From Ryuthela nishihirai (lineage: Eukaryota; Arthropoda; Arachnida; Araneae; Heptathelidae), in NCBI GenBank assembly GCA_038380435.1, contig JAWZYU010000130.1, forward strand, positions 504,001-568,000: a stretch of 64,000 nt of DNA, written 5' to 3'. Under the pieces are notes generated by a model, which was not told the origin of the DNA, did no database searches, and was given only the letters and a program-made list of their open reading frames with translations. Below are positions 24,623-48,236 of this stretch, one piece after another (within the stretch, counting starts at the first letter, position 1; the number at the start of each line of letters is the position of its first letter). The position numbers and the translations under genes were made by a program.

Positions 24623-27278
24623 CAGTGGTTATCAAACTTTTATACTGGAATCGAACTTTTACTCTGGAAAAGTGTATGTAACTGGCATACCCCTTGTATA
24701 AACAGACAAAACCACAGTTATAGTATAACAATGGGAATAAAATAAAACATATATATCAGTGGTTCTCAACCTTTTATACTTCACGTACCCCCTGGAAATG
24801 TGTATGTAACTGGCGTACCATTTGTATAGATAGATAAAACTATAGTTATAGTATAACAATGGGAATAAAATAAAACATATATATCAGTGGTTCTCAACCT
24901 TTTATGCTTCACGTGCCCCCTGGAAATGTGTATATAACTGGCGTACCCCTTGTATTGATAGATAAAACTATAGTTATAGTATAACAATGGGAATAAAATG
25001 AAACATATATATCAGTGGTTCTCAACCTTTTATGCTTCACGTACCCCCTGGAAATGTGTATGTAACTGGCGTACCCCTTGTATAAATAGATAAATCTATA
25101 GTTATAGTATAACAATGGGAATAAAATAAAACATATATATCAGTGGTTCTCAACCTTTTATGCTTCACGTGCCCCCTGGAAATGTGTATGTAACTGGCGT
25201 ACCCCTTGTATAGATAGATAAAACTATAGTTATAGTATAACAATCGGAATAAAATAAAACATATATATCAGTGGTTCTCAACCTTTTATGCTTAACGTAC
25301 CCCCTGGAAATCTGTATGTAACTGGCGTGCCTCTTGTATAGATAGATAAATCTATAGTTATAGTATAACAATGGGAATAAAATAAAACATATATATCAGT
25401 GGTTCTCAACCTTTTATGCTTCACGTGCCCCCTGGAAATGTGTATGTAACTGGCGTACCCCTTGTATAGATAGATAAAAATATAATTATAGTATATTAAT
25501 GGGAATAAAATAAAACATATATATCAGTGGTTCTCAACCTTTTAAGCTTCACGTACCCCCTGGAAATGTGTATGTAACTGGCGTACCCCTTGTATAGATA
25601 GATAAAACTATAGTTATAGTATAACAATGGGAATAAAATAAAACATATATATCAGTGGTTCTCAAACTTTTATGCTTCACATACCCCCTGGAAATGTGTA
25701 TGTAACTGGGGTACCCCTTGTATAGATAGATAAAAATATAATTATAGTATAACAATGGGAATAAAATAAAACATATACATCAGTGGTTCTCAATCTTTTT
25801 TGCTTCACGTGCCCCCTGGAAATGTGTATGTAACTGGCGTACCCCTTGTATAGATAGATAAAACTATAGTTATAGTATAACAATGGGAATAAAATAAAAC
25901 ATATATATCAGTGGTTCTCAACCTTTTACTCTTCACATATCCCCTGGAAATATGTATGTAACTGGCGTACCCCTTGTATAGATAGATAAAACTATAGTTA
26001 TACTATAACAATGGAAATAAAATAAAGCATATATATATATATCAATGTTTTCAATCTTTTAAGCTTCACGTACCCCCTGGAAATGTGTATGTAACTGGCG
26101 TACCCCTTGTATAGATAGATAAAAATATAATTATAGTGTAACAATGGGAATAAAAAAAAAAAACATATATCAGTGGTTCTCAACCTTTTATGCTTCACGT
26201 ACCTCCTTTAAATTTCTATGTAACTTAAGTACCGCTTGTGTAGATAGATAAAACTATAGTTATAGTATAACAATGGGAATAAAACAAAACATATATATCA
26301 CTGGTTCTCAAACTTTTATGCTTCACGTACCCCCTGGAAATGTGTATGTAACTGGCGTACCCCTTATATAGATAGATAAAAATATAATTATAGTATAACA
26401 ATGAGAATAAAATAAAACACATATATCAGTGGTTCTCAACCTTTTATACTTCACGTACCCCCTGGAAATGTGTATGTAACTGGCGTACCCCTTGTATAGA
26501 TAAATAAAACTATAGTTATAGTATAACAATGGGAATAAAATAAAACATATATATCAGTGGTTCTCAACCTTTTATGCTTCACGTACCCCCTGGAAATGTG
26601 TATGTAACTGGCGTACCCCTTGTATAGATAGATAAAAATATAATTATAGTATAACAATGGGAATAAAATAACACATATAAATCAATGGTTCACAACCTTT
26701 CATGCTTCACGTGCCCCCTGGAAATGTGTATGTAACTGGCGTACCCCTTGTATAGATAACTAAAAATATAATTATAGTATAACAAGGGTAATAAAATAAA
26801 ACACATATATCAGTGGTTCTCAAACTTTTATGCTTCACGTACCCTCTGGAAATGTGTATGTAACTGGCGTACCCCTTGTATAGATAGATAAAAATATAAT
26901 TATAGTATAACAATGGGAATAAAATAAAACACATATATCAGTGGTTCTCAACCTTTTATGCTTCACGTACCTCCTGGAAATTTCTATGTAACTTAAGTAC
27001 CGCTTGTGTAGATAGATAAAACTATAGTTATAGTATAACAACGGGAATAAAATAAAACATATATATCAGTGGTTCTCAACCTTTTACGCTTCACGTACCT
27101 CCTGGAAATGTGTATGTAACTGGCGTACACTTTGTATAGATAGATAAAAATAATTATATTATAAGAATGGGAATAAAATAAGACATATATATACACATAT
27201 AACACTATCTGGCGACTTTTAAACTCTCTCTGCGAACCCTAAAATATTTTACTGCGTATTCCACGTTGAGAACCGCTG
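24623..27278. repeat. Array 1 of the 128-bp hAT-TIR satellite (about 20 units)
   Basis: Tandem units of about 128 bp, each starting ATCAGTGGTTCTCAACCTTT then GCTTCACGTACCCCCTGG, then TGTAACTGGCGTACCCCTTG, then GATAGATAAAACTATAG, then ACAATGGGAATAAAATAAAA. CAGTGGTTCTCAACC is a classic hAT (Charlie-type) 5' terminus. The array closes with CGTTGAGAACCGCTG at 27264-27278, the opposite terminus in inverted orientation. The first unit (24623-24752) is the most diverged. Two unit types alternate irregularly: AAAACTATAGTTATAG and AAAAATATAATTATAG. Minus-strand frames of 66-75 codons recurring every 128 bp are a by-product. Confidence 0.92.
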
Positions 27279-27286
27279 CTGTAATC

Positions 27287-28052
27287 TATGAAGCGATCAC
27301 CCCAAAATCAGAGGGTTTTTATGGATGACTTTTTTTTAAGTTTGGTGCATCGAATGACAGAAAGAGGGAATAATAATTAAATATAGGAAAGTGTGCTGTG
27401 AAATACTTACCGGAATAGATGCATCAGTTGACTAAATGTCGAAATTCGTAACTGAAATATTGCATTTTACTAGATTATCAGAAGATTAGTTTTCATTGAG
27501 TGGCAACTTGATAGAACGGTCACAGTTACGACTTTACAATTTTTTATTTCAATCCCCGCTTCGGCAGAGATCTTCCTCGAACTGATGCCGAATCACAGAA
27601 TAGTAATGGATTAAACGAAAAAATAAAACTTCTAACCGTATGTCTAAAGTTTATACAGGTAGCTCTTGTTAACTATAAAAAGCTGACAAACTTAACGAAA
27701 GTAACAATCGAGAATATTATTTTCCTCCTTTTTTATGTCATATGTTTTGACAAAAATATTGAAGTCTCATCACGAATACTTTAGCCGAATTATTATTCCA
27801 TGCCATGTAATAGACTATATAACTGATATCACACGCATTCAAAAACACAAACTGCGAATAAATGGAGTTTTACAAATTTTCGATTCTATTTGGATATTTG
27901 GCAATCGATTGCGAATTCAAAATAAATAAACAACTATAAATGAACTGAATTAATAACACGGCAATAAAATTACGTGAATCATAAACAATTTCTTAACAAA
28001 TCACACAAAACCCTCATATGCTATCAATTAGTATAAACTAACTAACTGCTAA
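27287..28052 (+). repeat. Repeat R, right part (flank copy 1)
   Basis: R resumes after the array (GAAGCGATCACCCC) and matches 19850-20600 and the reverse complement of the 9.9-11 kb copy. It stops near 28052, where Tc1 transposase coding similarity starts. A 64-codon frame at 27735-27929 is a by-product of the repeat. Confidence 0.75.
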
Positions 28053-28485
28053 CCTCATAATTCCTGTGAACGGTCCTATAATGGCGTTCTCGACAATTCT
28101 GCACTCCGAACATGATGGCAACAGTTCGGTGAAGACCCTTTCCTCTACCAACAGGATGACGTTCCCGTCCACAAAGCGAGGACCATGCGGGAATGGTTTG
28201 ATGACAGGGATGTCGAAGAACTTGACTGGTCTGCACAGATCCTGGATCTCAACACCATGGAACACTTTTTGAATGAATTGGAACTCGGAGTGCGAGCCAG
28301 GCGGACCTGCCAGACATCAGTGACCGGCATCGCTGATGCTCTTGTGGCAGAAAGGAAGGCAATTCCAGCAGCAACGTACCAAAATCTAGTAGGACGCATT
28401 TCCTGCAGACTGGGGGGTTGTGGTAGCACCAAAGGTTGTATCAACGAGACATTAATTCCTTTCCTATTACCGGAAGGTTATTGAT
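28053..28485 (+). pseudogene. Tc1-like transposase C-terminal part (flank copy 1)
   Basis: From CTCATAATTCCTGTGAACGG (LIIPVNG, one frame) the similarity shifts frame to YNGVLDNSALRT, stop, WQQFGEDPFLYQQDDVPVHK (second catalytic Asp region), then REWFDDRDVEELDWSAQILD and LNTMEHFLNELE (catalytic Glu retained in M-E-H), then IPAATYQNLVGR. One in-frame stop (TGA near 28113) and the missing N-terminal half make it a pseudogene. It continues the piece at 24060-24330, so one Tc1 element was split by repeat R. Confidence 0.85.
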
Positions 28486-28532
28486 GAATGACTCTCTGGA
28501 TACGTTTGTTCATATAATGTATTTGATAAATA

Positions 28533-29365
28533 CCGGGTGATCCAAAAGTAAGAGAAAAAGTTAAAATGCAATAATTCGGAAAGTATAGACAGCAGCACGA
28601 TGCGGTTTTCAGAGAAATGCACAGAAAGACATGGAATTCTTTTAATAACGATAAATTTAATTGCCAGAATAGTAACATTTGCCACCGATAGGTAGCGCTT
28701 CAGTTCTGTTAGGAGTTTGTACACCTCTCTTTTGTTGCGATCTAATGCAACCGCGGCAATTTCCGATTCCGCCTATACGACACTACCAGTTATGAAAAGC
28801 CGTGCTTATCTATAGCCGGGGGAAAGGAATACGCCATATAGACTCACCTCAATCTCGGCTTAACATGGCAGCAGTCCTATTGAAGGAAAGCTAACCACCG
28901 GAAGAAACCTATTATTTATTCTGTTCCCCGGTTAGCCATGAACAAGGATATGTAGATCCAAGTTCGCTCGGCACCCGGGGTGGAAGGAGTTTGTACAGTG
29001 GCGCAGCACAATTCGCAACGCAACTAGGATTACAAATGTTCGATGCGACGGCCGTCATTCATGAGAATGACAGTCAGACGTGGCACGACGCTCTGCACAG
29101 CATCGAAGATGGTTTCAGCTGTAATTCCTGTCACATGATGGCTAATAAATTCTTTCAACATGGCCAATGACGTCGGCCGTCATGTGTACACCGCTACAGC
29201 GCCACCTGTCAGTGACAAATGTAACTATTCTGGCAACAAAATTTTTCGTTATTAAAAAAAATCCCATATCTTTCTGTGCATTTCTGTGAAAACCGCATCG
29301 TGCTACTATCTGTACTTTTCCAATTATTGCCTTTTTGCCTTTTCTGTTACTATTGGATCACCCTG
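28533..29365. mobile_element. Non-autonomous mariner/IS630-like element, 833 bp (copy 1)
   Basis: Inverted termini CCGGGTGATCCAAAAGTAAG and, in complement at the other end, CAGGGTGATCCAATAGTAAC. Similarity between the two ends continues inwards for about 170 bp (GCACGATGCGGTTTTC and ATTGCCAGAATAGT on both sides). TA precedes the left end; the right flank is TT here but TA in copy 3. Near 29029-29218 the minus strand retains a scrap of transposase C terminus ending in the R-R-I-E-H-L type seen in copy 2. The centre is deleted, so it is not autonomous. Confidence 0.85.
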
Positions 29366-29489
29366 TTCATCCCGTATCACATCTGAATCCCACTGCTCTC
29401 TACGCAGTTGTCCATCAACCAGATTCTTAATTCTGTTAAGAACAACCATGAAAGGACACTATCTGGAGCACAAAGTAGGCTGATACCCG

Positions 29490-29712
29490 TCTAGTTATCA
29501 GAAGATCTGCGATTGACATTTTTAAAAGTAGGTGTAATAATACCTCTGATAATATTCTTAGGAACAATACCTTTATCATTAAAGATATCAAGCATTTCCG
29601 TCAACCATGTTATAACAGATACATTCCTAACTTTAAGCATTTCGATAGTAATTTCACCTAACCTTAGGTTTTCTGTAAACAGAGAAAATGAAATATTTTT
29701 TCTTATTCTCAT
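29490..29712 (-). pseudogene. LINE reverse-transcriptase N-terminal scrap, antisense
   Basis: The minus-strand frame reads ITIEMLKVRNVSVITWLTEM then LDIFNDKGIVPKNIIRGIIT, parallel to TTETLRAGNVSITTWMTEIF...DKGIVSKDFTRAIVIP of the LINE at 53.2 kb. It is the region just before the first RT palm motifs. No further RT sequence follows directly. Confidence 0.7.
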
Positions 29713-29732
29713 AATTGTAAAATAAATATTTT

Positions 29733-29945
29733 CCGCCGTTTCGTGGCCGAGTGGTTAGCGCGCTTGGCTACTGATCTACGGGACCTGGGTTCGAGCCCCG
29801 GTTAAGGCATGGATGTTCGTGATGTTTTTCTGCTGAGGTCCTGCCATCCTCTCACACCTTCTACTCTGGCATATAAACTGACAAGCTCCTGTCAGACCTC
29901 TGTGGCAAGCAGCTGCTTGAGGGGGTATTTATTTATTTTTATTAT
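29733..29945 (+). mobile_element. SINE family A, full length
   Basis: Head CGTTTCGTGGCCGAGTGGTT, B box GGGTTCGAGCCCC, body, and 3' end GAGGGGGTATTTATTT. It is present at the same relative site in flank copy 3 (48605-48815), so it inserted before that duplication. Confidence 0.9.
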
Positions 29946-29984
29946 ATTTAAATATTTTCCTTTTTATTTTTAATTAATTACATT

Positions 29985-30070
29985 CTTCCATCATCATCGT
30001 CGTCGTCGTCGTCGTAAACATCATCAAAGAGCGATAGGCGTCCGAGGTCCAACCAGATCTTGCAATTTAG
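29985..30070 (-). mobile_element. LINE 3' tail, antisense, with a trinucleotide run
   Basis: The complement of 30040-30062 (GGTTGGACCTC) followed by GAC/GAT repeats matches the LINE 3' end at 54375-54425 (GGTTGGACCTCCGTAGCC, GATGATGATT). TCG/TCA repeats at 29990-30015 are the remnant of the LINE's trinucleotide tail. 30070-30570 has no recognised content; frames of 65-99 codons there are unsupported. Confidence 0.6.
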
Positions 30071-30570
30071 TTCTCGAAGCATATTTGTCCTGAGTGTTCT
30101 GCATTCATTTTCATATATACGCAGAACGATAACAAAAGTGTCCTTTCTGAAGCATTGTCGGCACAGGGACCAAAGACTTGCGAGCCACATCCGGTGGATT
30201 CTGGTTGGCTCCAGAATTTACCTTCTCGTCTGCTGTCCGGTATTCATACAAGCGGTGATGACACCACCAGAGACTGCAACTTCCGCTATGCCTCGACGTG
30301 CAAAGGCGCTGCTACCACCAAATCCATCCCGAGGGAGCGATCAAGACCATAGCAACTAAACGTTCGTGGAAAAGAAACGACCCACGTGGTAGAGAGTGCA
30401 ACATCAAAGAACTCTCAAGCCCTTGCTAATATTTGTTCCTTCTGATTGGCGGATGCTTACCACTGGAAGGGGCAGATGATACCTTTCGTCAGGAGGAAGT
30501 TAGAGGGGAGACTGTTTTATGCGGAGAGATGAGAAACGTTAATAATATATAATAAATAATATATAATAAA

Positions 30571-30675
30571 TAACCAGTTCCTTGTAACCTAGTCATTTAG
30601 ACCATGGTGTGCAAAAAAGTGTCCCTCATAGGTAAAGCAACCCAACGTTAAACAACACGATGGACGGCCTTGACG
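30571..30675 (+). mobile_element. SINE-B 3' modules truncated by satellite array 2
   Basis: CTTGTAACCTAGTCATTTAG to AGGTAAAGCAACCC is the end of one module, and AACGTTAAACAACACGATGG starts the next, which stops at CCTTGACG where array 2 begins. In copy 3 the same module continues (49556 onward), so 30675/30676 is a breakpoint. Confidence 0.85.
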
Positions 30676-32740
30676 AATATAAAACTACAGTTATAGTATA
30701 ACAATTGGAATAAAAAAACACATATATATCAGTGGTTCTCAACCTTTTATGCTTCACGTGCCCCCTGGAAATGTGTATGTAACTGGCGTACCCCTTGTAT
30801 AGATAGATAAAAATATAATTATAGTATATTAATGGGAATAAAATAAAACATATATATCAGTGGTTCTCAACCTTTTAAGCTTCACGTACCCCCTGGAAAT
30901 GTGTATGTAACTGGCGTACCCCTTGTATAGATAGATAAAACTATAGTTATAGTATAACAATGGGAATAAAATAAAACATATATATCAGTGGTTCTCAAAC
31001 TTTTATGCTTCACATACCCCCTGGAAATGTGTATGTAACTGGGGTACCCCTTGTATAGATAGATAAAAATATAATTATAGTATAACAATGGGAATAAAAT
31101 AAAACATATACATCAGTGGTTCTCAATCTTTTTTGCTTCACGTGCCCCCTGGAAATGTGTATGTAACTGGCGTACCCCTTGTATAGATAGATAAAACTAT
31201 AGTTATAGTATAACAATGGGAATAAAATAAAACATATATATCAGTGGTTCTCAACCTTTTATGCTTCACGTGCCCCCTGGAAATGTGTATGTAACTGGTG
31301 TACCCTTTGTATAGATAGATAAAACTATAGGTATAGTATAACAATGGGAATAAAATAAAACATATATATCAATTGTTGTCAACCTTTTACTCTTCACGTA
31401 TCCCCTGGAAATATGTATGTAACTGGCGTACCCCTTGTATAGATAGGTAAAACTATAGTTATACTATAACAATGGAAATAAAATAAAGCATATATATATA
31501 TCAATGTTTTCAATCTTTTAAGCTTCACGTACCCCCTGGAAATGTGTATGTAACTGGCGTACCCCTTGTATAGATAGATAAAAATATAATTATAGTGTAA
31601 CAATGGGAATAAAATAAATAACATATATCAGTGGTTCTCAACCTTTTATGCTTCACGTACCTCCTTTAAATTTCTATGTAACTTAAGTACCGCTTGTGTA
31701 GATAGATAAAACTATAGTTATAGTATAACAATGGGAATAAAACAAAACATATATATCACTGGTTCTCAAACTTTTATGCTTCACGTACCCCCTGGAAATG
31801 TGTATGTAACTGGCGTACCCCTTATATAGATAGATAAAAATATAATTATAGTATAACAATGAGAATAAAATAAAACACATATATCAGTGGTTCTCAACCT
31901 TTTATACTTCACGTACCCCCTGGAAATGTGTATGTAACTGGCGTACCCCTTGTATAGATAAATAAAACTATAGTTATAGTATAACAATGGGAATAAAATA
32001 AAACATATATATCAGTGGTTCTCAACCTTTTATGCTTCACGTACCCCCTGGAAATGTGTATGTAACTGGCGTACCCCTTGTATAGATAGATAAAAATATA
32101 ATTATAGTATAACAATGGGAATAAAATAACACATATAAATCAATGGTTCACAACCTTTCATGCTTCACGTGCCCCCTGGAAATGTGTATGTAACTGGCGT
32201 ACCCCTTGTATAGATAACTAAAAATATAATTATAGTATAACAAGGGTAATAAAATAAAACACATATATCAGTGGTTCTCAAACTTTTATGCTTCACGTAC
32301 CCTCTGGAAATGTGTATGTAACTGGCGTACCCCTTGTATAGATAGATAAAAATATAATTATAGTATAACAATGGGAATAAAATAAAACACATATATCTGT
32401 GGTTCTCAACCTTTTATGCTTCACGTACCTCCTGGAAATTTCTATGTAACTTAAGTACCGCTTGTGTAGATAGATAAAACTATAGTTATAGTATAACAAC
32501 GGGAATAAAATAAAACATATATATCAGTGGTTCTCAACCTTTTACACTTCACGTACCTCCTGGAAATGTGTATGTAACTGGCGTACACTTTGTATAGATA
32601 GATAAAAATATAATTATATTATAAGAATGGGAATAAAATAAGACATATATATATACACATATAACACTATCTAGCGACTTTTAAACTCTCTCTGCGAACC
32701 CTAAAATATTTTACTGCGTATTCCACGTTGAGAACCGCTG
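30676..32740. repeat. Array 2 of the hAT-TIR satellite (about 15 units)
   Basis: It starts inside a unit (AATATAAAACTACAGTTATAG). From 30730 it follows the order of variant units of array 1 from 25397, including the odd AGCATATATATATATCAATG unit, with one additional 128-bp unit near 31230-31360. It ends at the same inverted terminus (CGTTGAGAACCGCTG, 32726-32740). Confidence 0.92.
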
Positions 32741-33514
32741 CTATAATCTATGAAGCGATCACCCCAAAATCAGAGGGTTTTTATGGATGACTTTTTTTTA
32801 AGTTTGGTGCATCGAATGACAGAAAGAGGGAATAATAATTAAATATAGGAAAGTGTGCTGTGAAATACTTACCGGAATAGATGCATCAGTTGACTAAATG
32901 TCGAAATTCGTAACTGAAATATTGCATTTTACTAGATTATCAGAAGATTAGTTTTCATTGAGTGGCAACTTGATAGAACGGTCACAGTTACGACTTTACA
33001 ATTTTTTATTTCAATCCCCGCTTCGGCAGAGATCTTCCTCGAACTGATGCCGAATCACAGAATAGTAATGGATTAAACGAAAAAATAAAACTTCTAACCG
33101 TAAGTCTAAAGTTTATACAGGTAGCTCTTGTTAACTATAAAAAGCTGACAAACTTAACGAAAGTAACAATCGAGAATATTATTTTCCTCCTTTTTTATGT
33201 CATATGTTTTGACAAAAATATTGAAGTCTCATCACGAATACTTTAGCCGAATTATTATTCCATGCCATGTAATAGACTATATAACTGATATCACACGCAT
33301 TCAAAAACACAAACTGCGAATAAATGGAGTTTTACAAATTTTCGATTCTATTTGGATATTTGGCAATCGATTGCGAATTCAAAATAAATAAACAACTATA
33401 AATGAACTGAATTAATAACACGGCAATAAAATTACGTGAATCATAAACAATTTCTTAACAAATCACACAAAACCCTCATATGCTATCAATTAGTATAAAC
33501 TAACTAACTGCTAA

Positions 33515-33946
33515 CCTCATAATTCCTGTGAACGGTCCTATAATGGCGTTCTCGACAATTCTGCACTCCGAACATGATGGCAACAGTTCGGTGAAGACCC
33601 TTTCCTCTACCAACAGGATGACGTTCCCGTCCACAAAGCGAGGACCATGCGGGAATGGTTTGATGACAGGGATGTCGAAGAACTTGACTGGTCTGCACAG
33701 ATCCTGGATCTCAACACCATGAACACTTTTTGAATGAATTGGAACTCGGAGTGCGAGCCAGGCGGACCTGCCAGACATCAGTGACCGGCATCGCTGATGC
33801 TCTTGTGGCAGAAAGGAAGGCAATTCCAGCAGCAACGTACCAAAATCTAGTAGGACGCATTTCCTGCAGACTGGGGGGTTGTGGTAGCACCAATGGTTGT
33901 ATCAACGAGACATTAATTCCTTTCCTATTACCGGAAGGTTATTGAT
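33515..33946 (+). pseudogene. Tc1-like transposase C-terminal part (flank copy 2)
   Basis: Same content as the copy at 28053, with the DVPVHK and L-N-T-M regions, the in-frame stop before WQQFG and the additional one-base deletion near 33721 that separates the catalytic Glu block from what precedes it. Confidence 0.85.
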
Positions 33947-33993
33947 GAATGACTCTCTGGATACGTTTGTTCATATAATGTATTTGATAAATA

Positions 33994-34826
33994 CCGGGTG
34001 ATCCAAAAGTAAGAGAAAAAGTTAAAATGCAATAATTCGGAAAGTATAGACAGCAGCACGATGCGGTTTTCAGAGAAATGCACAGAAAGACATGGAATTC
34101 TTTTAATAACGATAAATTTAATTGCCAGAATAGTAACATTTGCCACCGATAGGTAGCGCTTCAGTTCTGTTAGGAGTTTGTACACCTCTCTTTTGTTGCG
34201 ATCTAATGCAACCGCGGCAATTTCCGATTCCGCCTATACGACACTACCAGTTATGAAAAGCCGTGCTTATCTATAGCCGGGGGAAAGGAATACGCCATAT
34301 AGACTCACCTCAATCTCGGCTTAACATGGCAGCAGTCCTATTGAAGGAAAGCTAACCACCGGAAGAAACCTATTATTTATTCTGTTCCCCGGTTAGCCAT
34401 GAACAAGGATATGTAGATCCAAGTTCGCTCGGCACCCGGGGTGGAAGGAGTTTGTACAGTGGCGCAGCACAATTCGCAACGCAACTAGGATTACAAATGT
34501 TCAATGCGACGGCCGTCATTCATGAGAATGACAGTCAGACGTGGCACGACGCTCTGCACAGCATCGAAGATGGTTTCAGCTGTAATTCCTGTCACATGAT
34601 GGCTAATAAATTCTTTCAACATGGCCAATGACGTCGGCCGACATGTGTACACCGCTACAGCGCCACCTGTCAGTGACAAATGTAACTATTCTGGCAACAA
34701 AATTTTTCGTTATTAAAAAAAATCCCATATCTTTCTGTGCATTTCTGTGAAAACCGCATCGTGCTACTCTCTGTACTTTTCCAATTATTGCCTTTTTGCC
34801 TTTTCTGTTACTATTGGATCACCCTG
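33994..34826. mobile_element. Non-autonomous mariner/IS630-like element, 833 bp (copy 2)
   Basis: Same ends and length as copy 1, including the TT in place of TA at the right flank. The minus frame 34679-34491 (62 codons) reads LAMLKEFISHHVTGITAETI and ends NDGRRIEHL, which I recognise as the usual C-terminal ending of a mariner/IS630-type transposase group of arthropods. Confidence 0.85.
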
Positions 34827-37800
34827 TTCATCCCGTATCACATCTGAATCCCACTGCTCTCTACGCAGTTAGAGCCCCCTGGAAAGGTGTATGTAACTGG
34901 CGTACCCCTTGTATAGATAGATAAAACTATAGTTATAGTATAACAATGGGAGTAAAATAAAACATATAAATCAGTGGTTGTCAACCTTTTATGCTTCACG
35001 TACCCCCTGGAAATGTGTATGTAACTGGCGTACCCTTGTATAGATAGATAAAAATATAAATTTAGAATAACAATGGTAATAAAATAAAACACATATATCA
35101 GTGATTCTCAAACTTTTATGCTTCACGTACCCCCTGGAAATGTGTATGTAAGTAGCGTACCACTTGTATAGATAGATAAAACTATAGTTATAGTATAACA
35201 ATGGGAATAAAATAAAACATATATATCAGTGGTTCTCAACCTTTTATGCTTCACGTGCCCCCTGGAAATGTGTATGTAACTGGCGTACCCCTTGTATAGA
35301 TTGATAAAACTATAGTTATAGTATAACAATGGGAATAAAATAAAACATATATATCAATGGTTCTCAAACTTTTACGCTTCACGTGCCCCCTGGAAATGTG
35401 TATGTAACTGGCGTACCCCTTGTATAGATAGATAAAACTATAGTTATAGTATAACAATGGGAATAAAATAAAACATATATATCAATGGTTCTCAACCTTT
35501 TACGCTTCACGTGCCCCCTGGAAATGTGTATGTAACTGGCGTACCCCTTGTATAGATAGATAAAACTATAGTTATAGTATAACAATGGGAATAAAGTAAA
35601 ACATATATATCAGTGGTTCTCAACCTTTTATGCTTAACGTGCCCCCTGGAAATGTGTATGTAACTGGCGTACCCCTTGTATAGATAGATAAAACTATAGT
35701 TATAGTATAGCAATGGGAATAAAATAAAACATATATATCAGTGGTTCTCAACCTATTATGCTTCACGTGCCCCCTGGAAATGTGTATATAACTGGCGTAC
35801 CCTTTGTGTAGATAGATAAATCTATAGTTATAATATAACAATGGGAGTAAAATAAAACATATAAATCAGTGGTTCTCAACATTTTATGCTTCACGTGCCC
35901 CCTTGAAATGTGTATGTAACTGGCGTACCCTTTGTGTAGATAGATAAAACTATAGTTATAATATAACAATGGGAATAAAATAAAACATATATATCAATGG
36001 TTCTCAACCTTTTACGCTTCACGTACCCCCTGGAAAGGTGTATGTAACTGGCGTACCCCTTGTATAGATAGATAAAACTATAGTTATAGTATAACAATGG
36101 GAGTAAAATAAAACATATAAATCAGTGGTTCTCAAACTTTTATGCTTCACGTGCCCCCTGGAAATGTGTATGTAACTGGCCTACCCTTGTATAGATAGAT
36201 AAAAATATAATTTTAGAATAACAATGGGAATAAAATAAAACACATATATCAGTGATTCTCAAACTTTTATGCTTCACGTACCCCCTGGAAATGTGTATGT
36301 AACTGGCGTACCCCTTGTATAGATAGATAAAACTATAGTTATAGTATAACAATGGGAATAAAATAAAACATATATATCAGTGGTTCTCAACCTTTTATGC
36401 TTCACGTGCCCCCTGGAAATGTGTATCTAACTGGCGTACCCCTTGTATAGATAGATAAAACTATAGTTATAGTATAACAATGGGAATAAAATAAAACATA
36501 TAAATCAGTGGTTCTCAACCTTTTATGCTTCACGTGCCCCCTGGAAATGTGTATCTAACTGGCGTACCCCTTGTATAGATAGATAAAACTATAGTTATAG
36601 TATAACAATGGGAATAAAATAAAACATATATATCAGTGGTTCTCAACCTTTTATGCTTCACGTGCCCCCTGGAAATGTGTATGTAACTGGCGTACCCTTT
36701 GTGTAGATAGATAAAACTATAGTTATAATATAACAATGGGAATAAAATAAAACATATATATCAATGGTTCTCAACCTTTTACGCTTCACGTACCCCCTGG
36801 AAAGGTTTATGTAACTGGCGTACCCCTTGTATAGATAGATAAAACTATAGTTATAGTTTAACAATGGGAGTAAAATAAAACATATAAATCAGTGGTTCTC
36901 AACCTTTCATGCTTCACGTGCCCCCTGGAAATGTGTATGTAACTGGCTTACACCTTGTATAGATAGATAAAAATATAATTATAGTATAACGATGGGAATA
37001 AAATAAAACATATATATATCAGTGGTTCTCAACCTTTTATGATTCACGTACCCCCTGGAAATTTCTATGAAACTTAAGTACCGCTTGTGTAGATAGATAA
37101 AACTATAGTTATAGTATAACAATGGGAATAAAATAAAACATATATATCAGTGGTTCTCAACCTTTTATGCTTCACGTACCCCCTGGAAATTTCTATGTAA
37201 CTTAATTACCGCTTGTGTAGATAGATAAAACTCTAGTTATAGTATAACAATGGGAATAAATTGAAACAAATATATCAGTGGTTCTCACCTTTTATGATTC
37301 ATGTACCCCCTGGAAAGGTGTATGTAATTGGCGTACACCTGGTATAGATAGATAAAACTATAGTTATAGTATAACAATGGGAATAAAATAAAACATATAT
37401 ATCAGTGGTTCTCAAACTTTTATGCTTCACGTACCCCCTAGAAATCTGTATGTAACTGGCGTACCCCTTGTATAGATAGATAAAACTATAGTTATAGTAA
37501 AACAATGGGAATAAAACATATATATCAGTGGTTCTCAACCTTTTAATCTTCACGTGCCCCCTGGAAATGTGTATGTAACTGGCGTACCCCTTATATATAT
37601 AGATAAAACTATAGCTATAGTATAATAATGGGAATAAAATAACACATATATATCAGTGGTTATCAACCTTTTATGCTTCACGTGCCCCCTGGAAATGTGT
37701 ATGTAACTGGCGTACCCTTTGTGTAGATAGATAAATCTTTAGTTATAGTAAAACAATGGGAATAAAACATATATATCAGTGGTTCTCAAACTTTTATGCT

Positions 37801-39399
37801 TCACGTGCCCCCTGGAAATGTGTATGTAACTGGCGTACACCTTGTATAGATAGATAAAAATATAATTATAGTATAACAATGGGAATAAAATAAAACGTAT
37901 ATATCAATGGTTCTCAAACTTTTACGCTTCACGTGAACCCTGGAAATGTGTATGTAACTGGCGTACCCCTTGTATAGATAGATAAAACTATAGTTATAGT
38001 ATAACAATGGGAATAAAATAAAACATATATATCAATGGTTCTCAAAATTTTACGCTTCACGTGCCCCCTGGAAATGTGTATGTAACTGGCGTACCCCTTG
38101 TATAGATAGATAAAACTATAGTTATAGTATAACAATGGGAATGAAATAAAACATATATATCAGTGGTTCTCTACCTTTTATGCTTCACGTGCCCCCTGGA
38201 AATGTGTATGCAACTGGCGTACCCTTTGTGTAGATAGATAAAACTATAGTTATAATATAACAATGGGAATAAAATAAAACATATATATCAATGGTTCTCA
38301 ACCTTTTACGCTTCACGTACCCCCTGGAAAGGTGTATGTAACTGGCGTACCCCTTGTATAGATAGATAAAACTATAGTTATAGTATAACAATGGGAGTAA
38401 AATAAAACATATAAATCTGTGGTTCTCAACCTTTTATGCTTCACGTGCCCCCTGGAAATGTGTATGTAACTGGCGTACCCTTGTATAGATAGATAAAAAT
38501 ATAATTTTAGAATAACAATGGGAATAAAATAAAACACATATATCAGTGATTCTCAAACTTTTATGCTTCACGTACCCCCTGGAAATGTGTATATAACTGG
38601 CGTACCCCTTGTATAGATAGATAAAACTATAGTTATAGTATAACAATGGGAATAAAATAAAACATATATATCAATGGTTCTCAACATTTTACGCTTCACG
38701 TGCCCCCTGGAAATGTGTATGTAACTGGCGTACCCCTTGTATAGATAGATAAAACTATAGTTACAGTATAACAATGGGAATAAAATAAAACATATATATC
38801 AGTGGTTCTCAAACTTTTATGCTTCACGTGCCCCCTTTAAATGTGTATGTAACTGGCGTACCCCTTGTATAGATAGATAAAACTATAGTTATAGTATAAC
38901 AATGGGAATAAAATAAAACATATATATCAATGGTTCTCAAACTTTTACGCTTCACGTGCCCCCTGGAAATGTGTATGTAACTGGTGTACCACTTGTATAG
39001 ATAGATAAAACTATAGTTATAGTATAACAATGGGAATGAAATAAAACATATAAATCAGTGGTTCTCAACCTTTTATGCTTCACATACCCCCTGGAAATTT
39101 CTATGTAACTTAAGTACCGCTTGTGTAGATAGATAAAACTCTAGTTATAGTGTAACAATGGGAATAAAATGAAACAAATATATCAGTGGTTCTCACCTTT
39201 TATGATTCACCTACCCCCTGGAAAGGTGTATGTAACTGGCGTACCCCTGGTATAGATAGATAAAACTATAGTTATAGTATAAGAATGGGAATAAAATAAA
39301 ACATATATATCAGTGGTTCTCAACCTTTTATGCTTCACCTACCCCCTGGAAATCTGTATGTAACTGGCGTACCCCTTATATAGATAGATAAAACTATAG

Positions 39400-42300
39400 T
39401 TATAGTAAAACAATGGGAATAAAACATATATATCAGTGGTTCTCAACCTTTTAATCTTCACGTGCCCCCTGGAAATGTGTATGTAACTGGCGTACCCCTT
39501 ATATATATAGATAAAACTATAGTTATAGTATAACAATGGGAATAAAATAACACATGTATATCAGTGGTTCTCAACCTTTTATGCTTCACGTGCCCCCTGG
39601 AAATGTGTATGTAACTGGCGTACCCTTTGTGTAGATAGATAAAACTATAGTTATAGTATAACAATTGGAATAAAATAAAACATATATATATCAGTGGTTC
39701 TCTACCTTTTATGCTTCACGTGCCCCCGGGAAATATGTATGTAACTGGCGTACCCTTTGTATAGATAGATAAAAATATAATTATAGTATAACAATGGGAA
39801 TAAAATAAAACATATATATATCAGTGGTTCTCAACCTTTTATGCTTCACGTGCCCCCTGGAAATGTGTATGTAACTGGCGTACACCTTGTATAGATAGAT
39901 AAAAATATAATTATAGTATAACAATGGGAATAAAATAAAACATATATATATCAGTGGTTCTCAACCTTTTATGCTTCACGTGCCCCCTGAAAATGTGTAT
40001 GTAACTGGCGTACCCCTTGTATAGATAGTTAAAATTATAGTTATAGTATCACAATGGGAATAAAATAAAACATATATATCAGTGGTTCTCAACCTTTTAT
40101 GCTTCACGTGCCCCCTGGAAATATGTATGTAACTGGCGTACCCCTTGTATAGATAGATAAAACTATAGTTATAGTAAAACAATGGGAATAAAACATATAT
40201 ATCAGTGGTTCGCAACCTTTAAATCTTCACGTGCCCCCTGGAAATGTGTATGTAACTGGCGTACACCTTATATAGACAGATAAAACTATAGTTAGAGTAT
40301 AACAATGGGAATAAAATACCACATATATATCAGTGGTTCTCAACCTTTTATGCTTCACGTGTCCCCTGGAAATGTGTATGTAACTGGCGTACCCCTTGTA
40401 CATATAGATAAAACTATAGTTATAGTATAACAATAGGAATAAAATAAAACATATATATCAGTGGTTCTCAAACTTTTATGCTTCACGTACCCCCTGGAAA
40501 TGTGTATGTAACTGGCGTACCCTTTGTATAGATAGATAAACATATAATTATAATATAACAATGGGAATAAAATAAAACATATAAATCAGTGGTTCTCAAC
40601 CTTTTATGCTTCACGTGCCCCCTGAAAATGTGTATGTAACTGGCGTACCCCTTGTATAGATAGATAAAACTATAGTTATAGTATAACAATGGGAATAAAA
40701 TAAACCATATATATCAGTGGTTCTCAACCTTTTATGCTTCACGTACCCCCTGGAAATGTGTATGTAACTGGTGTACCCCGTGTATAGATAGATAAAAATA
40801 TAATTATATTATAACAATGGGAATAAAATAAAACATATATATCAGTGGTTCTCAATCTTTTATGCTTCACGTGCCCCCTGGAAATGTGTATGTAACTGGC
40901 GTACCCCTTGTATAGATAGATAAAACTATAGTTATAGTAAACAATGGGAATAAAACATATATATCAGTGGTTCTCAACCTTTTAATCTTCACGTGCCCCC
41001 TGGAAATGTGTATATAACTGGCGTACCCCTTATATATATAGATAAAACTATAGTTATAGTATAACAATGGGAATAAAATAACACATGTATATCAGTGGTT
41101 CTCAACCTTTTATGCTTCACGTGCCCCCTGGAAATGTGTATGTAACTGGCGTACCCTTTGTGTAGATAGATAAAACTATAGTTATAGTATAACAATTGGA
41201 ATAAAATAAAACATATATATATCAGTGGTTCTCTACCTTTTATGCTTCACGTGCCCCCGGGAAATATGTATGTAACTGGCGTACCCTTTGTATAGATAGA
41301 TAAAAATATAATTATAGTATAACAATGGGAATAAAATAAAACATATATATATCAGTGGTTCTCAACCTTTTATGCTTCACGTGCCCCCTGGAAATGTGTA
41401 TGTAACTGGCGTACACCTTGTATAGATAGATAAAAATATAATTATAGTATAACAATGGGAATAAAATAAAACATATATATATCAGTGGTTCTCAACCATT
41501 TATGCTTCACGTGCCCCCTGAAAATGTGTATGTAACTGGCGTACCCCTTGTATAGATAGATAAAATTATAGTTATAGTATCACAATGGGAATAAAATAAA
41601 ACATATATATCAGTGGTTCTCAACCTTTTATGCTTCACGTGCCCCCTGGAAATATGTATGTAACTGGCGTACCCCTTGTATAGATAGATAAAACTATAGT
41701 TATAGTAAAACAATGGGAATAAAACATATATATCAGTGGTTCGCAACCTTTAAATCTTCACGTGCCCCCTGGAAATGTGTATGTAACTGGCGTACACCTT
41801 ATATAGACAGATAAAACTATAGTTAGAGTATAACAATGGGAATAAAATACCACATATATATCAGTGGTTCTCAACCTTTTATGCTTCACGTGTCCCCTGG
41901 AAATGTGTATGTAACTGGCGTACCCCTTGTACATATAGATAAAACTATAGTTATAGTATAACAATAGGAATAAAATAAAACATATATATCAGTGGTTCTC
42001 AAACTTTTATGCTTCACGTACCCCCTGGAAATGTGTATGTAACTGGCGTACCCTTTGTATAGATAGATAAACATATAATTATAATATAACAATGGGAATA
42101 AAATAAAACATATAAATCAGTGGTTCTCAACCTTTTATGCTTCACGTGCCCCCTGAAAATGTGTATGTAACTGGCGTACCCCTTGTATAGATAGATAAAA
42201 CTATAGTTATAGTATAACAATGGGAATAAAATAAAACATATATATCAGTGGTTCTCAACCTTTTATGCTTCACGTACCCCCTGGAAATGTGTATGTAACT

Positions 42301-42490
42301 GGTGTACCCCGTGTATAGATAGATAAAAATATAATTATATTATAACAATGGGAATAAAATAAAACATATATATCAGTGGTTCTCAATCTTTTATGCTTCA
42401 CGTGCCCCCTGGAAATGTGTATGTAACTGGCGTACCCCTTGTATAGATAGATAAAACTATAGTTATAGTAAACAATGGGAATAAAACATA
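39400..42490. repeat. Higher-order duplication in array 3, period about 1,531 bp
   Basis: Variant units recur in the same order at a distance of 1,531 bp: for example the AACCTTTTAATCTTCACG unit (39450 and 40981), the GACAGATAAAACTATAGTTA unit (40276 and 41807) and the GTGTACCCCGTGTATAG unit (40770 and 42301). That is 12 units, some shortened. Boundaries are approximate. Confidence 0.85.
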
Positions 42491-42899
42491 TATATCAGTG
42501 GTTCTCAACCTTTTAATATTCACGTGCCCCCTGGAAATGTGTATGTAACTGGCGTACACCTTATATAGATAGATAAACTATAGTTATAGTAAAACAATGG
42601 GAATAACACATATATATCAGTGGTTCTCAACCTTTTATGCTTCACGTGGCCCCTGGAAATGTGTATGTAACTGGCGTACCCCTTGTACATATAGATAAAA
42701 CTATAGTTATAGTATAACAATGGGAATAAAATAAAACATATATATCAGTGGTTCTCAAACATTTATGCTTCACGTACCCCCTGGAAATGTGTATGTATCT
42801 GGCGTACCCCTTGTATAGATAGATAAAAATATAATTATAGTATAAAAATGGGAATAAAATAAAACATATATATCAGTGGTTCTCAACCTTTTATGCTTC

Positions 42900-45720
42900 A
42901 CGTGCCCTCTGAAAATGTGTATGTCACTGGCGTACCCCTTGTATAGATAGATAAAACTATAGTTATAGTATAACAATGGGAATAAAATAAAACATATATA
43001 TCAGTGGTTCTCAACCTTTTATGCTTCACGTACCCCCTGGAAATGTGTATGTAACTGGCGTACCCCTTGTATAGATAGATAAAAATATAATTATAGTATA
43101 ACAATGGGAATAAAATAAAACATATACATCAGTGGTTGTCAACCTGTTATGCTTCACGTGCCTCCTGGAAATGTGTATGTAACTGGTGTACCCCCTGTAT
43201 AGATAGATAAAACTATAGTTGTAGTATAACAATGGGAATAAAATAAAATATATATATCAGTGTTTCTCAACCTTTTATGCTTCACGTGCCCCCTGGAAAT
43301 GTGTATGTAACTGGCGTACCCCTTGAAGAGATAGATAAAACTATAGTTAGAGTATAAAAATGGGAATAAAAGAAAACATATATATCAATGGTTCTCAACC
43401 TTTTACGCTTCACGTACCCCCTGGAAAGGTTTATGTAACTGGCGTACCTCTTGTATAGATAGATAAAACTATAGTTATAGTATAACAATGGGAATAAAAT
43501 AAAACATATAAATCAGTGGTTCTCAACCTTTTATGCTTCACGTGCCCCCTGGAAATGTGTATGTAACTGGCGTACCCCTTGTATACATAGATAAAAATAT
43601 AATTATAGTATAACAATGGGAATAAAATAAAACATATATATCAGTGGTTCTCAACTTTTTATGCTTCACGTTCCCCCTGGAAATGTGTATGTAACTGGCG
43701 TACCCCTTGTAGAGATAGATAAAAATATAATTATAGTATAACAATGGGAATAAAATAAAACATATATATCAGTGGTTCTCAACTTTTTATGCTTCACGTT
43801 CCCCCTGGAAATGTGTATGTAACTGGCGTACCCCTTGTATAGATAGATAAAAATATAATTATAGTATAACAATGGGAATAAAATAAAACATATATATCAG
43901 TGGTTCTCAACTTTTTATGCTTCACGTTCCCCCTGGAAATGTGTATGTAACTGGCGTAACCCTTGTATAGATAGATAAAAATATAATTATAGTATAACAA
44001 TGGGAATAAAATAAAACACATATATCAGTGGTTCTCAAACTTTTATGCTTCACGTACCCCCTGGAAATGTGTATACAACTGGCGTACCCCTTGTATAGAT
44101 AGATAAAACTATAGTTATAGTATAACAATGGGAATAAAATAAAACATATGTATCAGTGGTTCTGAATCTTTTATGCTTCACGTACCCCCTGGAAATGTGT
44201 ATGTAACTGGCGTACCCCTTGTATAGATAGATAAAAATATAATTATAGTATAACAATGGGAATAAAATAAAACATATATATCAGTGGTTCTCAACCTTCT
44301 ATGCTTCACGTACCCTCTGAAAATGTGTATGTCACTGGCGTACCCCTTGTATAGATAGATAAAACTATAGTTATAGTATAACAATGGGAATAAAATAAAA
44401 CATATATATCAGTGGTTCTCAACCTTTTATGCTTCACGTACCCCCTGGAAATGTGTATGTAACTGGCGTACCCCTTGTATAGATAGATAAAAATATAATT
44501 ATAGTATAACAATGGGAATAAAATAAAACATATACATCAGTGGTTGTCAACCTGTTATGCTTCACGTGCCTCCTGGAAATGTGTATGTAACTGGTGTACC
44601 CCCTGTATAGATAGATAAAACTATAGTTGTAGTATAACAATGGGAATAAAATAAAATATATATATCAGTGTTTCTCAACCTTTTATGCTTCACGTGCCCC
44701 CTGGAAATGTGTATGTAACTGGCGTACCCCTTGAAGAGATAGATAAAACTATAGTTAGAGTATAAAAATGGGAATAAAAGAAAACATATATATCAATGGT
44801 TCTCAACCTTTTACGCTTCACGTACCCCCTGGAAAGGTTTATGTAACTGGCGTACCTCTTGTATAGATAGATAAAACTATAGTTATAGTATAACAATGGG
44901 AATAAAATAAAACATATAAATCAGTGGTTCTCAACCTTTTATGCTTCACGTGCCCCCTGGAAATGTGTATGTAACTGGCGTACCCCTTGTATACATAGAT
45001 AAAAATATAATTATAGTATAACAATGGGAATAAAATAAAACATATATATCAGTGGTTCTCAACTTTTTATGCTTCACGTTCCCCCTGGAAATGTGTATGT
45101 AACTGGCGTACCCCTTGTAGAGATAGATAAAAATATAATTATAGTATAACAATGGGAATAAAATAAAACATATATATCAGTGGTTCTCAACTTTTTATGC
45201 TTCACGTTCCCCCTGGAAATGTGTATGTAACTGGCGTACCCCTTGTATAGATAGATAAAAATATAATTATAGTATAACAATGGGAATAAAATAAAACATA
45301 TATATCAGTGGTTCTCAACTTTTTATGCTTCACGTTCCCCCTGGAAATGTGTATGTAACTGGCGTAACCCTTGTATAGATAGATAAAAATATAATTATAG
45401 TATAACAATGGGAATAAAATAAAACACATATATCAGTGGTTCTCAAACTTTTATGCTTCACGTACCCCCTGGAAATGTGTATACAACTGGCGTACCCCTT
45501 GTATAGATAGATAAAACTATAGTTATAGTATAACAATGGGAATAAAATAAAACATATGTATCAGTGGTTCTGAATCTTTTATGCTTCACGTACCCCCTGG
45601 AAATGTGTATGTAACTGGCGTACCCCTTGTATAGATAGATAAAAATATAATTATAGTATAACAATGGGAATAAAATAAAACATATATATCAGTGGTTCTC
45701 AACCTTCTATGCTTCACGTA
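42900..45720. repeat. Higher-order duplication in array 3, period 1,408 bp (11 units)
   Basis: Variant units recur at exactly 1,408 bp: ACATCAGTGGTTGTCAACCT (43126 and 44534), CCCCTTGAAGAGATAGATAA (43319 and 44727) and three consecutive ACTTTTTATGCTTCACGTTC units (43654 and 45062 onward). The two copies are almost identical, more alike than neighbouring units are to one another, so this duplication is recent. Confidence 0.9.
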
Positions 45721-46923
45721 CCCCCTGGAAATGTGTATGTAACTGGCGTACCCCTTGTATAGATAGATAAAAATATAATTATAGTATAACAATGGGAATA
45801 AAATAAAACATAAATATCAGTGGTTCTCAAACTTTTATGCTTCACGTACCCTCTGGAAATGTGTATGTAACTGGCGTACCCGTTTTATAGGTAGATAAAA
45901 CTATAGTTATAGTATAACAATGGGAATAAAATAAAACATATATATCAGTGGTTCTCAACCTTTTATGCTTCACGTACCTCCTGGCAATTTGTATGTAACT
46001 GGCGTACCCCTTGTATAGATAGATAAAACTATAGTTATAGTATAACAATGGGAATAAAATAAAACTTATATATACACATATAACAGTATCTACCGACTTT
46101 TAAACTCTCTCTGCGAACCCCAAAATATTTTACTGCGTATTCCTCGTTGAGAACCGCTGCTATAATCTATGAAGCGATCGCCCCAAAATCGGAGGGTTTT
46201 TATGGATTACTTTTTTTTATGTTTGGTGCATCGAATGAGAGAAAGAGGGAATAATAATTAAATATAGGAAAGTGTGCTGTGAAATACTTACCGGAATAGA
46301 TGCATCAGTTGACTAAATGTCGAAATTCGTAACTGAAATATTGCATTTTACTAGATTATCAGAAGATTAGTTTTCATTGAGTGGCAACTTGATAGAACGG
46401 TCACAGTTACGACTTTACAATTTTTTATTTCAATCCCCGCTTCGGCAGAGATCTTCCTCGAACTGATGCCGAATCACAGAATAGTAATGGATTAAACGAA
46501 AAAATAAAACTTCTAACCGTAAGTCTAAAGTTTATACAGGTAGCTCTTGTTAACTATATAAAGCTGACAAACTTAACGAAAGTAACAATCGAGAATATTA
46601 TTTTCCTCCTTTTTTATGTCATATGTTTTGACAAAAATATTGAAGTCTCATTACGAATACTTTAGCCGAATTATTATTCCATGCCATGTAATAGACTATA
46701 TAACTGATATCACACGCATTCAAAAACACAAACTGCGAATAAATGTATTTTTAGAAATTTTCAATTCTATTTGGATATTTGGCAATCGATTGCGAATTCA
46801 AAATAAAGAAACAAACTATAAATGAACTGAATTAATAACACGGCAATAAAATGACATGAATCATAAACAAATCACACAAATCTCTCATATGCTATCAATC
46901 AGTATAAACTAACTAACTGCTAA

Positions 46924-47357
46924 CCTCATAATTCCTGTGAACGGTCCTATAATGGCGTTCTCGACAATTCTGGACTCCGAACATGATGGCAACAGTTCGG
47001 TGAAGACCCTTTCCTCTTCCAATAGGATGACGTTCCCGTCCACAAAGCGAGGACCATGTGGGAATGGTTTGATGACAGGGATGTCGAAGAACTTGATTGG
47101 TCTGCACAGATCCTGGATCTCAACACCATGGAACACTTTTGGGATGAATTGAAACTCGGACTGCGAGTCAGGCCGACCTGCCAGATATCAGTGACCGGCA
47201 TCGCTGATACTCTTGTGGCAGAAAGGAAGGCAATTCCAGCAGCAACGTACCAAAATCTAGTGGGACGCATTTCCTGCAGACTGGGGGGTTGTGGTAGCAC
47301 CAAATGTTGCACTAACGAGACATTAATTCCTTTCCTATTACCGGAAGGTTATGGATG
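46924..47357 (+). pseudogene. Tc1-like transposase C-terminal part (flank copy 3)
   Basis: As in copy 1, with differences: FWDELKLGLRVRPTCQ is closer to the family form than the FLNELELGVRARR of copies 1 and 2 (W retained before D-E-L). The in-frame stop before WQQFG is shared by all three copies, so the gene was dead before duplication. Confidence 0.85.
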
Positions 47358-47403
47358 AATGACAGTCTGGATACGTTTGTTCATATAATGTATTTGATAA
47401 ATA

Positions 47404-48236
47404 CCGGGTGATCCAAAAGTAAGAGAAAAAGTTAAAATGCAATAATTCGGAAAGTATAGACAGCAGCACGATGCGGTTTTCAGAGAAATGCACAGAAAGA
47501 CATGGAATTCTTTTTATAACGATAAATTTAATTGCCAGAATAGTAACATTTGCCACCGATAGGTAGCGCTTCAGTTCTGTTAGGAGTTTGTACACCTCTC
47601 TTTTGTTGCGATCTTATGCAACCGCGGCAATTTCCGATTCCGCCTATACGACACTACCAGTTATGAAAAGCCGTGCTTATCTGTAGCCGGGGGAAAGGAA
47701 TACGCCATATAGACTCACCTCAACCTCGGCTTAACATGGCAGCAGTCCTATAGAAGGAAAGCTAACCAGCGGAAGAAACCTATTATTTAATCTGTTCCCT
47801 GGTTAGCCATGAACAAGGATATGTAGATCCAAGTTCGCTCGGCACCCGGGGTGGAAGGAGTTTGTACAGTGGCGCAGCACAATTCGCAACGCAGCTAGGA
47901 TTACTAATGTTCAATGCGACGGCCGTCATTCATGAGAATGACAGTCAGACGTGGCACGACACTATGCACAGCATCGAAGAGGGTTTCAGCTGTAATTCCT
48001 GTCACATGATGGCTAATAAATTCTTTCAACATGGCCAATGACGTCAGCCGATCTGTGTACACCGCTACAGCGCCACCTGTCAGTGACAAATGTAACTATT
48101 CTGGCAATAAAATTTTTCGTTATTAAAAAAAAACCCATGTCTTTCTGTGCATTTCTGTGAAAACCGCATCGTGCTACTGTCTGTACTTTTCGAATTATTG
48201 CCTTTTTACCTTTTCTGTTACTATTGGATCACCCTG
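47404..48236. mobile_element. Non-autonomous mariner/IS630-like element, 833 bp (copy 3)
   Basis: Same termini as copies 1 and 2, with an intact TA duplication at 47402-47403 and 48237-48238. The minus-strand transposase scrap is at 48089-47904. Confidence 0.9.

Follow-up and report, generated by a model that had tools for sequence, protein, structure and literature searches.

Satellites that originate from transposon ends are already known, with Tetris and Xstir as examples. Here we describe a 128-bp satellite in a stretch of 64,000 nucleotides from the spider Ryuthela nishihirai (GenBank assembly GCA_038380435.1, contig JAWZYU010000130.1, positions 504,001 to 568,000 of the forward strand), which is referred to as a whole as the window. 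The best overall explanation, which we consider probable, is that the satellite unit corresponds to the complete left end of a Buster-type hAT transposon, comprising the terminal inverted repeat (TIR) and the subterminal region.

The Tetris/TIR-220 system of Drosophila virilis, as described in PMC4079207, resembles the repeats studied here in having tandem repeats of variable copy number in the terminal region of a transposon, with satellite-like arrays of up to 66 copies and homogenisation in some complete copies. It differs in being a foldback element, with the repeats located inside the TIRs and a 37-bp stretch in common with the terminal domain, and in that no transposase copy was detected in that study, whereas a transposase-bearing copy was found here. 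Furthermore, the unit described here spans the whole left end up to and including the terminus, and is amplified on one side only. In Xenopus, the abundant Xmix miniature inverted-repeat transposable element (MITE) carries the Xstir tandem array, and the MITE, array and composite forms are described as coexisting (PMC6004289, PMC9659126, PMC12628747). Xmix is presented in these sources as a T2-MITE of the Kolobok type with a TTAA target, in contrast to the hAT/Buster element examined here, which has an 8-bp nnnTAnnn target and a unit that includes the terminus. The origin of Xstir differs by source, being an internal segment in PMC6004289 and PMC12628747 and a TIR in a table in PMC9659126.

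Tandem truncated Helitrons are likewise described as having many 5' ends and one 3' end, with several to several hundred repeats (PMC12628747), but are rolling-circle elements, unlike the cut-and-paste element with target duplications found here. The Mar element of Drosophila is a Buster-type MITE with 8-bp nnnTAnnn duplications and a relic full-length copy (PMC3517528). The main text of that article does not contain the word "tandem", and arrays of this kind thus do not seem to be described for Mar. Tandem dimers and a 16-copy expansion of hobo (McGurk and Barbash, as cited in PMC12628747) also represent a hAT tandem array, which apparently consists of whole elements joined together, whereas only the left 128 bp are repeated here. 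The Mutator-like elements stacked through microsatellites described in PMC5907723 differ in being whole and unrelated elements. In the titles and abstracts listed by our searches of open-licence articles in PubMed Central, we found no satellite formed by amplification of the left end of a hAT element together with its terminus and closed by only one right end, which is not proof of its absence from print.

Three Arrays in the Window Are Copies of One Insertion

Three arrays of the 128-bp unit were identified in the window with Tandem Repeats Finder, at positions 24664-27192 (array A), 30679-32652 (array B) and 34874-46073 (array C). A BLAST search (E ≤ 1e-3) recovered 124 copies of the unit, of which 122 were at least 100 bp long; 20 were located in array A, with the first unit counted, 16 in array B and 88 in array C, and none were detected in the window outside the arrays at this threshold. 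The 15-bp head of the unit, CAGTGGTTCTCAACC, matched the plus strand of the window at 118 sites with up to 2 mismatches and at 58 sites exactly, as compared to a mean of 0.04 matches in shuffled sequence. The opposite terminus, GTTGAGAACCGCTG, occurred exactly once per array, at positions 27265, 32727 and 46146. The arrays consist of repeated units and close with one opposite terminus, and in the genome the number of left ends that close with one right end ranges from one to about ninety.

All parts lie on the plus strand. Element A starts with its outermost left end, a diverged first unit of 134 bp (24623-24756) with AGTTAGAG directly before it, and continues with 128-bp units identified by both Tandem Repeats Finder and BLAST (24757-27192), followed by a single right end of 86 bp (27193-27278) that ends with GTTGAGAACCGCTG. 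This variant, which is unlike the internal units, was also the first unit at 3 other loci that represent further copies of the duplicated segment (L015, L016, and L022), and its left flank was likewise found at L016 and L022. The single right ends of B, a duplicate of A, and of C are located at 32655-32740 and 46074-46159. The outer left end is intact in A only, because that of B has been lost inside another repeat and that of C is truncated at the left junction near 34874. It was also noted that AGTTAGAG, the 8 bp to the left of A, is fused at this junction (34867-34874) to sequence otherwise found near 29400; the junction of C is a rearrangement of the microhomology type.

The right flank of A (27279-29408) has been copied to the right of both B and C. 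The sequence identity was 99.6% over 2.2 kb between the flanks of A and B (27201-29408 vs. 32663-34869) and 94.9% over 3.5 kb between those of A and C (27201-30669 vs. 46082-49581). Arrays A and B were 97.2% identical (25218-27298 vs. 30679-32760), and 14 of the 19 units in A had their nearest neighbour in B. Because the right flanks are shared, the 3 arrays are segmental duplicates, and the single right terminus therefore counts as one observation rather than three. We rejected the independence of the arrays on the basis of these common flanks of 94.9% to 99.6% identity.

The initial annotation of the window, which was made from the sequence alone, had listed three 128-bp arrays with about 120 units and one opposite terminus at the close of each, in agreement with the 124 copies and the single occurrences of GTTGAGAACCGCTG. 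Its statement that every unit opens with CAGTGGTTCTCAACC holds if mismatches are allowed but not for exact matches, and the reading of the arrays as separate events is not supported, given the shared right flanks.

The window-type right end matched 60 sites in the genome (36-bp pattern, up to 3 mismatches), including the 3 in the window, and 37 of the 60 were located between 91 and 106 Mb on a single contig (C2). The flanks of the window insertion were also present at L015 and L016, both of which were read, and at L022, for which the left flank was read. Since the copies that were read have the flanks of the window, the insertion has been multiplied within a larger segment. Two other sets of arrays (L074 and L077; L007, L039, L040, and L041) had right flanks that were common within each set at distant places, which indicates that some arrays, like those of the window, are carried along in larger segments that were duplicated or transposed.

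A Dispersed Element with One or Many Left Ends

We read 30 loci with the generic right end, 20 of which contained a left end according to the script criterion. The 10 loci without a left end by this criterion included a transposase copy (L066), and the 20 with a left end included one with an 880-bp gap (L044) and one that was rearranged (L068), neither of which represents a clean element. The flanking 8-mers were identical in 8 of the 20 elements and matched at 7 of 8 positions in another 5, corresponding to the 8-bp target duplications of hAT elements. Among 380 mismatched locus pairs used as a control, none matched at all 8 positions and 5.8% matched at 7.

A single unit combined with a right end and a perfect 8-bp duplication was found at L042, L046, L049, L055, and L064, as well as at L088. 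The single-unit elements with both ends were about 190 to 335 bp long and have the features of MITEs, being short, non-coding, high in copy number and equipped with both ends. Target duplications were also observed around elements with several units: L043 with 7 units (8/8, GACTAGAT), L050 with 8 units (8/8, CTCTAGGT), L056 with 7 units, two of which were partial (7/8), and L082 with 4 units (7/8). In total, a duplication of at least 7/8 was present in 4 of the 7 arrays with both ends that were scored. At L007, with 12 units, flanks of TCTTAGAG and TCTTAAAG were recognised by eye beside a shortened right terminus.

Furthermore, a paralogous empty site was identified for the single-unit element L051. 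Its joined flanks aligned without interruption, at 84% identity over 314 bp, to a copy of a sequence resembling a long interspersed nuclear element (LINE) on the plus strand of the window (53661-53974), and additional LINE-like paralogous empty sites were found in L063 and L008. The element is a dispersed transposon. The empty site in the window overlaps an open reading frame (ORF) of 245 amino acids (53508-54245), which resembles a LINE reverse transcriptase. It was also noted that the LINE-like family of this ORF is a target of hAT insertion, at L051, and that the right flank of L047 reads alike.

A Decayed Transposase-Bearing Relative

The ends in the window are CAGTGGTTCTCAACC (left) and GTTGAGAACCGCTG (right), and elsewhere mostly GTTGAGAACCCCTA/G. 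Short TIRs of the CAGNGGTTCTCAAC type, which is typical of hAT ends, were present. The right end at L066 had no unit nearby, and the extended locus, L069, was found to contain an element of 2.53 kb (L069:5966-8495) that combines the right end with a single left unit of 93.5% identity and is flanked by ATCTAAAC and ATCTAAAT. Broken ORFs for a hAT transposase were located between the ends, on the opposite strand. The transposase pieces alone gave no match to a hAT family in Pfam, whereas the joined ORF pieces yielded 452 protein matches at E ≤ 0.001, which settled the identity of the transposase. The best homologue, with 52% identity, was a protein of 643 amino acids annotated with PF05699. Many of the named matches were annotated as zinc finger BED domain-containing protein 5-like, and others as SCAND3-like or hypothetical.

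A TA dinucleotide was present at positions 4-5 in all 15 duplications of at least 7/8, which included L051, shifted one base by hand, and the rearranged L068. ZBED5 is placed in the Buster family in PMC3606216, and the target consensus of Buster-type hAT elements is given as nnnTAnnn in PMC3517528; a TA at positions 4-5 is the signature of this type. Target consensus and protein similarity together predict that the element is a Buster-type hAT. The C-terminal transposase piece had 4,177 candidate copies, of which 150 were scored; in these, the sequence identity ranged from 71% to 88%, the query copy aside, and most contained at least one stop codon. Judging from these sequences, the transposase family looks old and largely decayed.

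In L069, the hAT copy is adjoined by an element of the long terminal repeat (LTR) type (L069:1640-5846), with two identical direct repeats of 656 bp and an ORF of 988 amino acids. Sequence related to this LTR-type element begins directly after the array in L081.

The proposal in the initial annotation that a hAT left end was tandemly multiplied while the right end stayed single is supported by one-unit and array elements with target duplications. The solitary elements with one unit, the right terminus and 8-bp duplications that it had anticipated exist at 6 loci, as listed above. An autonomous hAT with matching ends, which it had also suggested, was found in part, in that L069 has the matching ends but retains only remnants of the transposase. 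It had further considered that the unit might occur in satellites without the hAT end; in the opened loci, the unit was the left end of this family or belonged to its truncated arrays (e.g. L006 and L080), and no satellite of another kind contained it, although unrelated satellites beyond these loci were not searched. Neither of the refuting conditions named in the initial annotation was thus borne out. The non-independence of the arrays, the genome scale, the duplications of both forms, the Buster assignment, the transposase-bearing relative and the junction at the AT tract have been added here.

Genome-Wide Abundance

To estimate the abundance of the repeat, the assembly of 3.11 Gb in 1,680 contigs was searched with sequence patterns, for which all counts represent lower bounds. 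The unit head matched at least 150,197 sites (30-bp pattern, up to 2 mismatches), which at 128 bp per head corresponds to about 19 Mb, or about 0.6% of the assembly. At least 125,108 heads were directly preceded by ATATAT, the signature of internal units, and the reversed control pattern gave no matches in either search; the heads are mostly located inside arrays. The generic right end matched at least 732 sites (41-bp pattern, up to 3 mismatches), a number that came from a longer and different pattern and is therefore no ratio partner for the 150,197 heads, and the 100 matches listed were spread over many contigs. The repeat has the features of a satellite, with long tandem arrays, a sizeable share of the genome and local homogenisation, and the sampled arrays are interspersed. 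Exact patterns of the unit had no matches in IMG/VR or among the GTDB contigs, collections that may not include the genome of the window.

The exact heads among the matches listed at the start of contig C1 formed 24 clusters, which were read as 9 single-unit loci (L008 and L083 to L090) and 15 arrays; these matches are not exhaustive, since the search for heads preceded by ATATAT adds an array at C1:15.340 Mb. The longest C1 array extends from C1:6,875,764 to beyond 6,889,500 and would contain at least about 107 units if it is continuous; its middle part was not read, and exact heads among the matches listed occur through much of its length. In several arrays of the C1 sample, the right end has been lost or other sequences have inserted (L006, L080, and L081).

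Unit Junctions and Local Growth

The junctions between units were nearly all of the form (AT)n followed by CAGTGG. In a set of 405 internal junctions, in which about 10 were counted twice since the overlapping loci L001 and L002 were both included, ATATATAT preceded CAGTGG in 266, and at least 7 of the 8 nucleotides were A or T in 97%. Single-unit elements that belong to the full-length or the AACATATATCTAGCG subtype have an AT-rich tract at the equivalent position. The outer flanks of the 4 duplication-bounded arrays resemble target sites and are not AT tracts.

The nearest neighbour of a unit was located inside its own locus for 259 of the 387 units, with ties counted for the same locus. This was the case for 31 of 32 units in L079, 30 of 31 in L091/L092, and 81 of 86 in array C of the window, and for 4 of 13 in L093/L094. 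Within array C, blocks of 11 and 12 units recur at more than 99% identity: one at 42757-44422 with an offset of 1,408 bp (11 units, 99.3% identical) and another at 39403-41047 with an offset of 1,531 bp (12 units, 99.2% identical), both on the plus strand. The growth of the arrays is largely local, but not universally so.

Origin of the Arrays

Decayed copies with a transposase and numerous short non-autonomous derivatives are probably what remains of the hAT family in this genome. A large class of these derivatives has one right end but a left end that is tandemly repeated in head-to-tail orientation. By the simplest route, the first duplication may have occurred when the AT tract of the element, at about positions 118 to 132, paired with AT-rich sequence outside the left terminus, such that slippage or unequal exchange through the tract would copy exactly one left end. 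The resulting multi-unit elements would then transpose with the single right end and the left end that lies furthest outside, and the arrays would grow at the landing site as unit blocks underwent unequal exchange. The window would represent one such array, which was later copied by segmental duplication. A one-unit element with a flank other than an AT tract cannot produce an AT junction by slippage in place, and the duplication-bounded arrays must therefore either have inserted with several units or have gained units by gene conversion; we favour the former.

We also raise, tentatively, the possibility that a hAT element with many left ends and a single right end is itself the mobile form, a "many-headed" cut-and-paste transposon, in which any left end may be selected by the transposase as the partner of the right end, such that each jump resets the number of units. 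If true, this would explain the occurrence of single-unit and many-unit members within one internal-deletion subtype, and the element would produce and spread a satellite of its own, starting from a short AT tract through which exactly one end is duplicated.

Several observations weigh against an origin by a single AT-tract duplication followed by transposition of multi-unit elements. Firstly, one-unit and array members are both present in each of 4 internal-deletion subtypes, and the AT tract is absent from the single-unit members of the CACTGACTTTG and ATTTTTACTTTG subtypes. This grouping left out the duplicates L002-L004 and L041, the loci L069-L073 and L095-L096, and L009-L038, which have window-type right ends and three of which are the window itself; of the loci included, 9 were classified as other, 7 lacked a recognisable right end and 1 contained a long gap. 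Since both forms occur in 4 subtypes, the gain, transfer or loss of the array state took place on more than one occasion, which points to repeated gains, gene conversion or unit loss rather than to one simple founder. Secondly, no 2 unrelated sites among the sampled loci were shown to share an array with an identical order of units, and transposition of arrays en bloc is therefore an inference. Likewise, none of the elements was identified as a founder with a newly duplicated left end; the left flank of L006 is AT-rich (GTAATATA), as an exception among the arrays without a duplication, but its right end is absent. Thirdly, the target duplication was lacking in 3 of the 7 scored arrays, L047 (23 units, 4/8), L075 (5/8), and L078 (5/8), as well as around the window insertion, where AGTTAGAG on the left contrasts with CTGTAATC (A) or CTATAATC (B and C) on the right. 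A duplication of at least 7/8 was present in only 2 of 10 scored elements in the C1 sample, a poor preservation which suggests that many copies are old or rearranged. Finally, units showed little similarity to others at their own locus in L002 (1 of 14), L075 (2 of 8), and window array A (2 of 19).

Some of these patterns would be expected if single-unit insertions stayed in place and copied extra units by gene conversion from arrays elsewhere, with no transposition of the arrays. Gene conversion accounts for one-unit and array members in 4 subtypes that share one junction phase, fits the subtypes in which the single-unit members lack the AT tract, and leaves the target duplications intact. 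However, the 259 of 387 units that are nearest to their own locus mean that local growth is needed afterwards in any case, and no pair of donor and recipient was found. We regard gene conversion as the strongest competitor, although a rather unlikely one.

The AT-rich junctions could also have resulted from insertion of an element into the AT tract of another copy, followed by deletion between the right halves to leave 2 left ends and 1 right end. Such a nested insertion would leave a junction of AT tract and CAGTGG, and ATATATAT fits the nnnTAnnn consensus of targets with a central TA. It also predicts right termini close to element-internal sequence, but no right terminus was located 6 to 34 bp before the internal motif CACATTAAATTTTG in the genome, in a search with an exact pattern for one subtype and no positive control. 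The right terminus followed by ATATATATA gave 1,545 matches at up to 3 mismatches, of which the 2 exact ones, L095 and L096, were opened and were not nested; the other 1,543 were inexact. We consider nested insertion an unlikely source of the arrays.

Rolling-circle amplification of an excised circle has been proposed for Helitrons, and many left ends with one right end is the anatomy described for their arrays in PMC12628747. We consider this improbable for the present arrays, because the target duplications and the transposase belong to a cut-and-paste hAT element and locus-specific block duplications can account for the growth. The capture of a pre-existing satellite that was then spread by the hAT element, as proposed for the Xenopus miDNA4 MITE in PMC12628747, is highly improbable, since the start of the unit coincides exactly with the transposon terminus and the unit matches the one left end present in L069 (93.5%), and since single-unit elements with perfect duplications exist.

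The conversion of transposons to satellites is usually inferred from relics. In this genome, transposase copies, single-unit MITEs, elements with a few units and intact duplications, long arrays and segmental copies coexist, and the order of events is therefore testable. The system could further show, in a natural setting, how a hAT transposase selects among many adjacent left ends, and whether cut-and-paste transposition can deliver dispersed satellite arrays.

Other Repeats in the Window

A second case of a tandem repeat related to a transposon was noted at 14334-15183, 49494-50399, 62896-63422 and 21943-22271 in the window, where a head-to-tail unit of about 169 bp corresponds to roughly 170 bp at one end of a dispersed repeat of about 385 bp. 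The dispersed repeat resembles a short interspersed nuclear element and is present in 10 near-full copies in the window, including one at 57237-57621. No tRNA gene was found in the window with ARAGORN. Finally, a minisatellite with a 29-bp unit, TGATGTTGATGTTCCTGAGATGATGTTTC, is present in 11 copies at 16255-16569, with a period of 156 bp at 100% matches.

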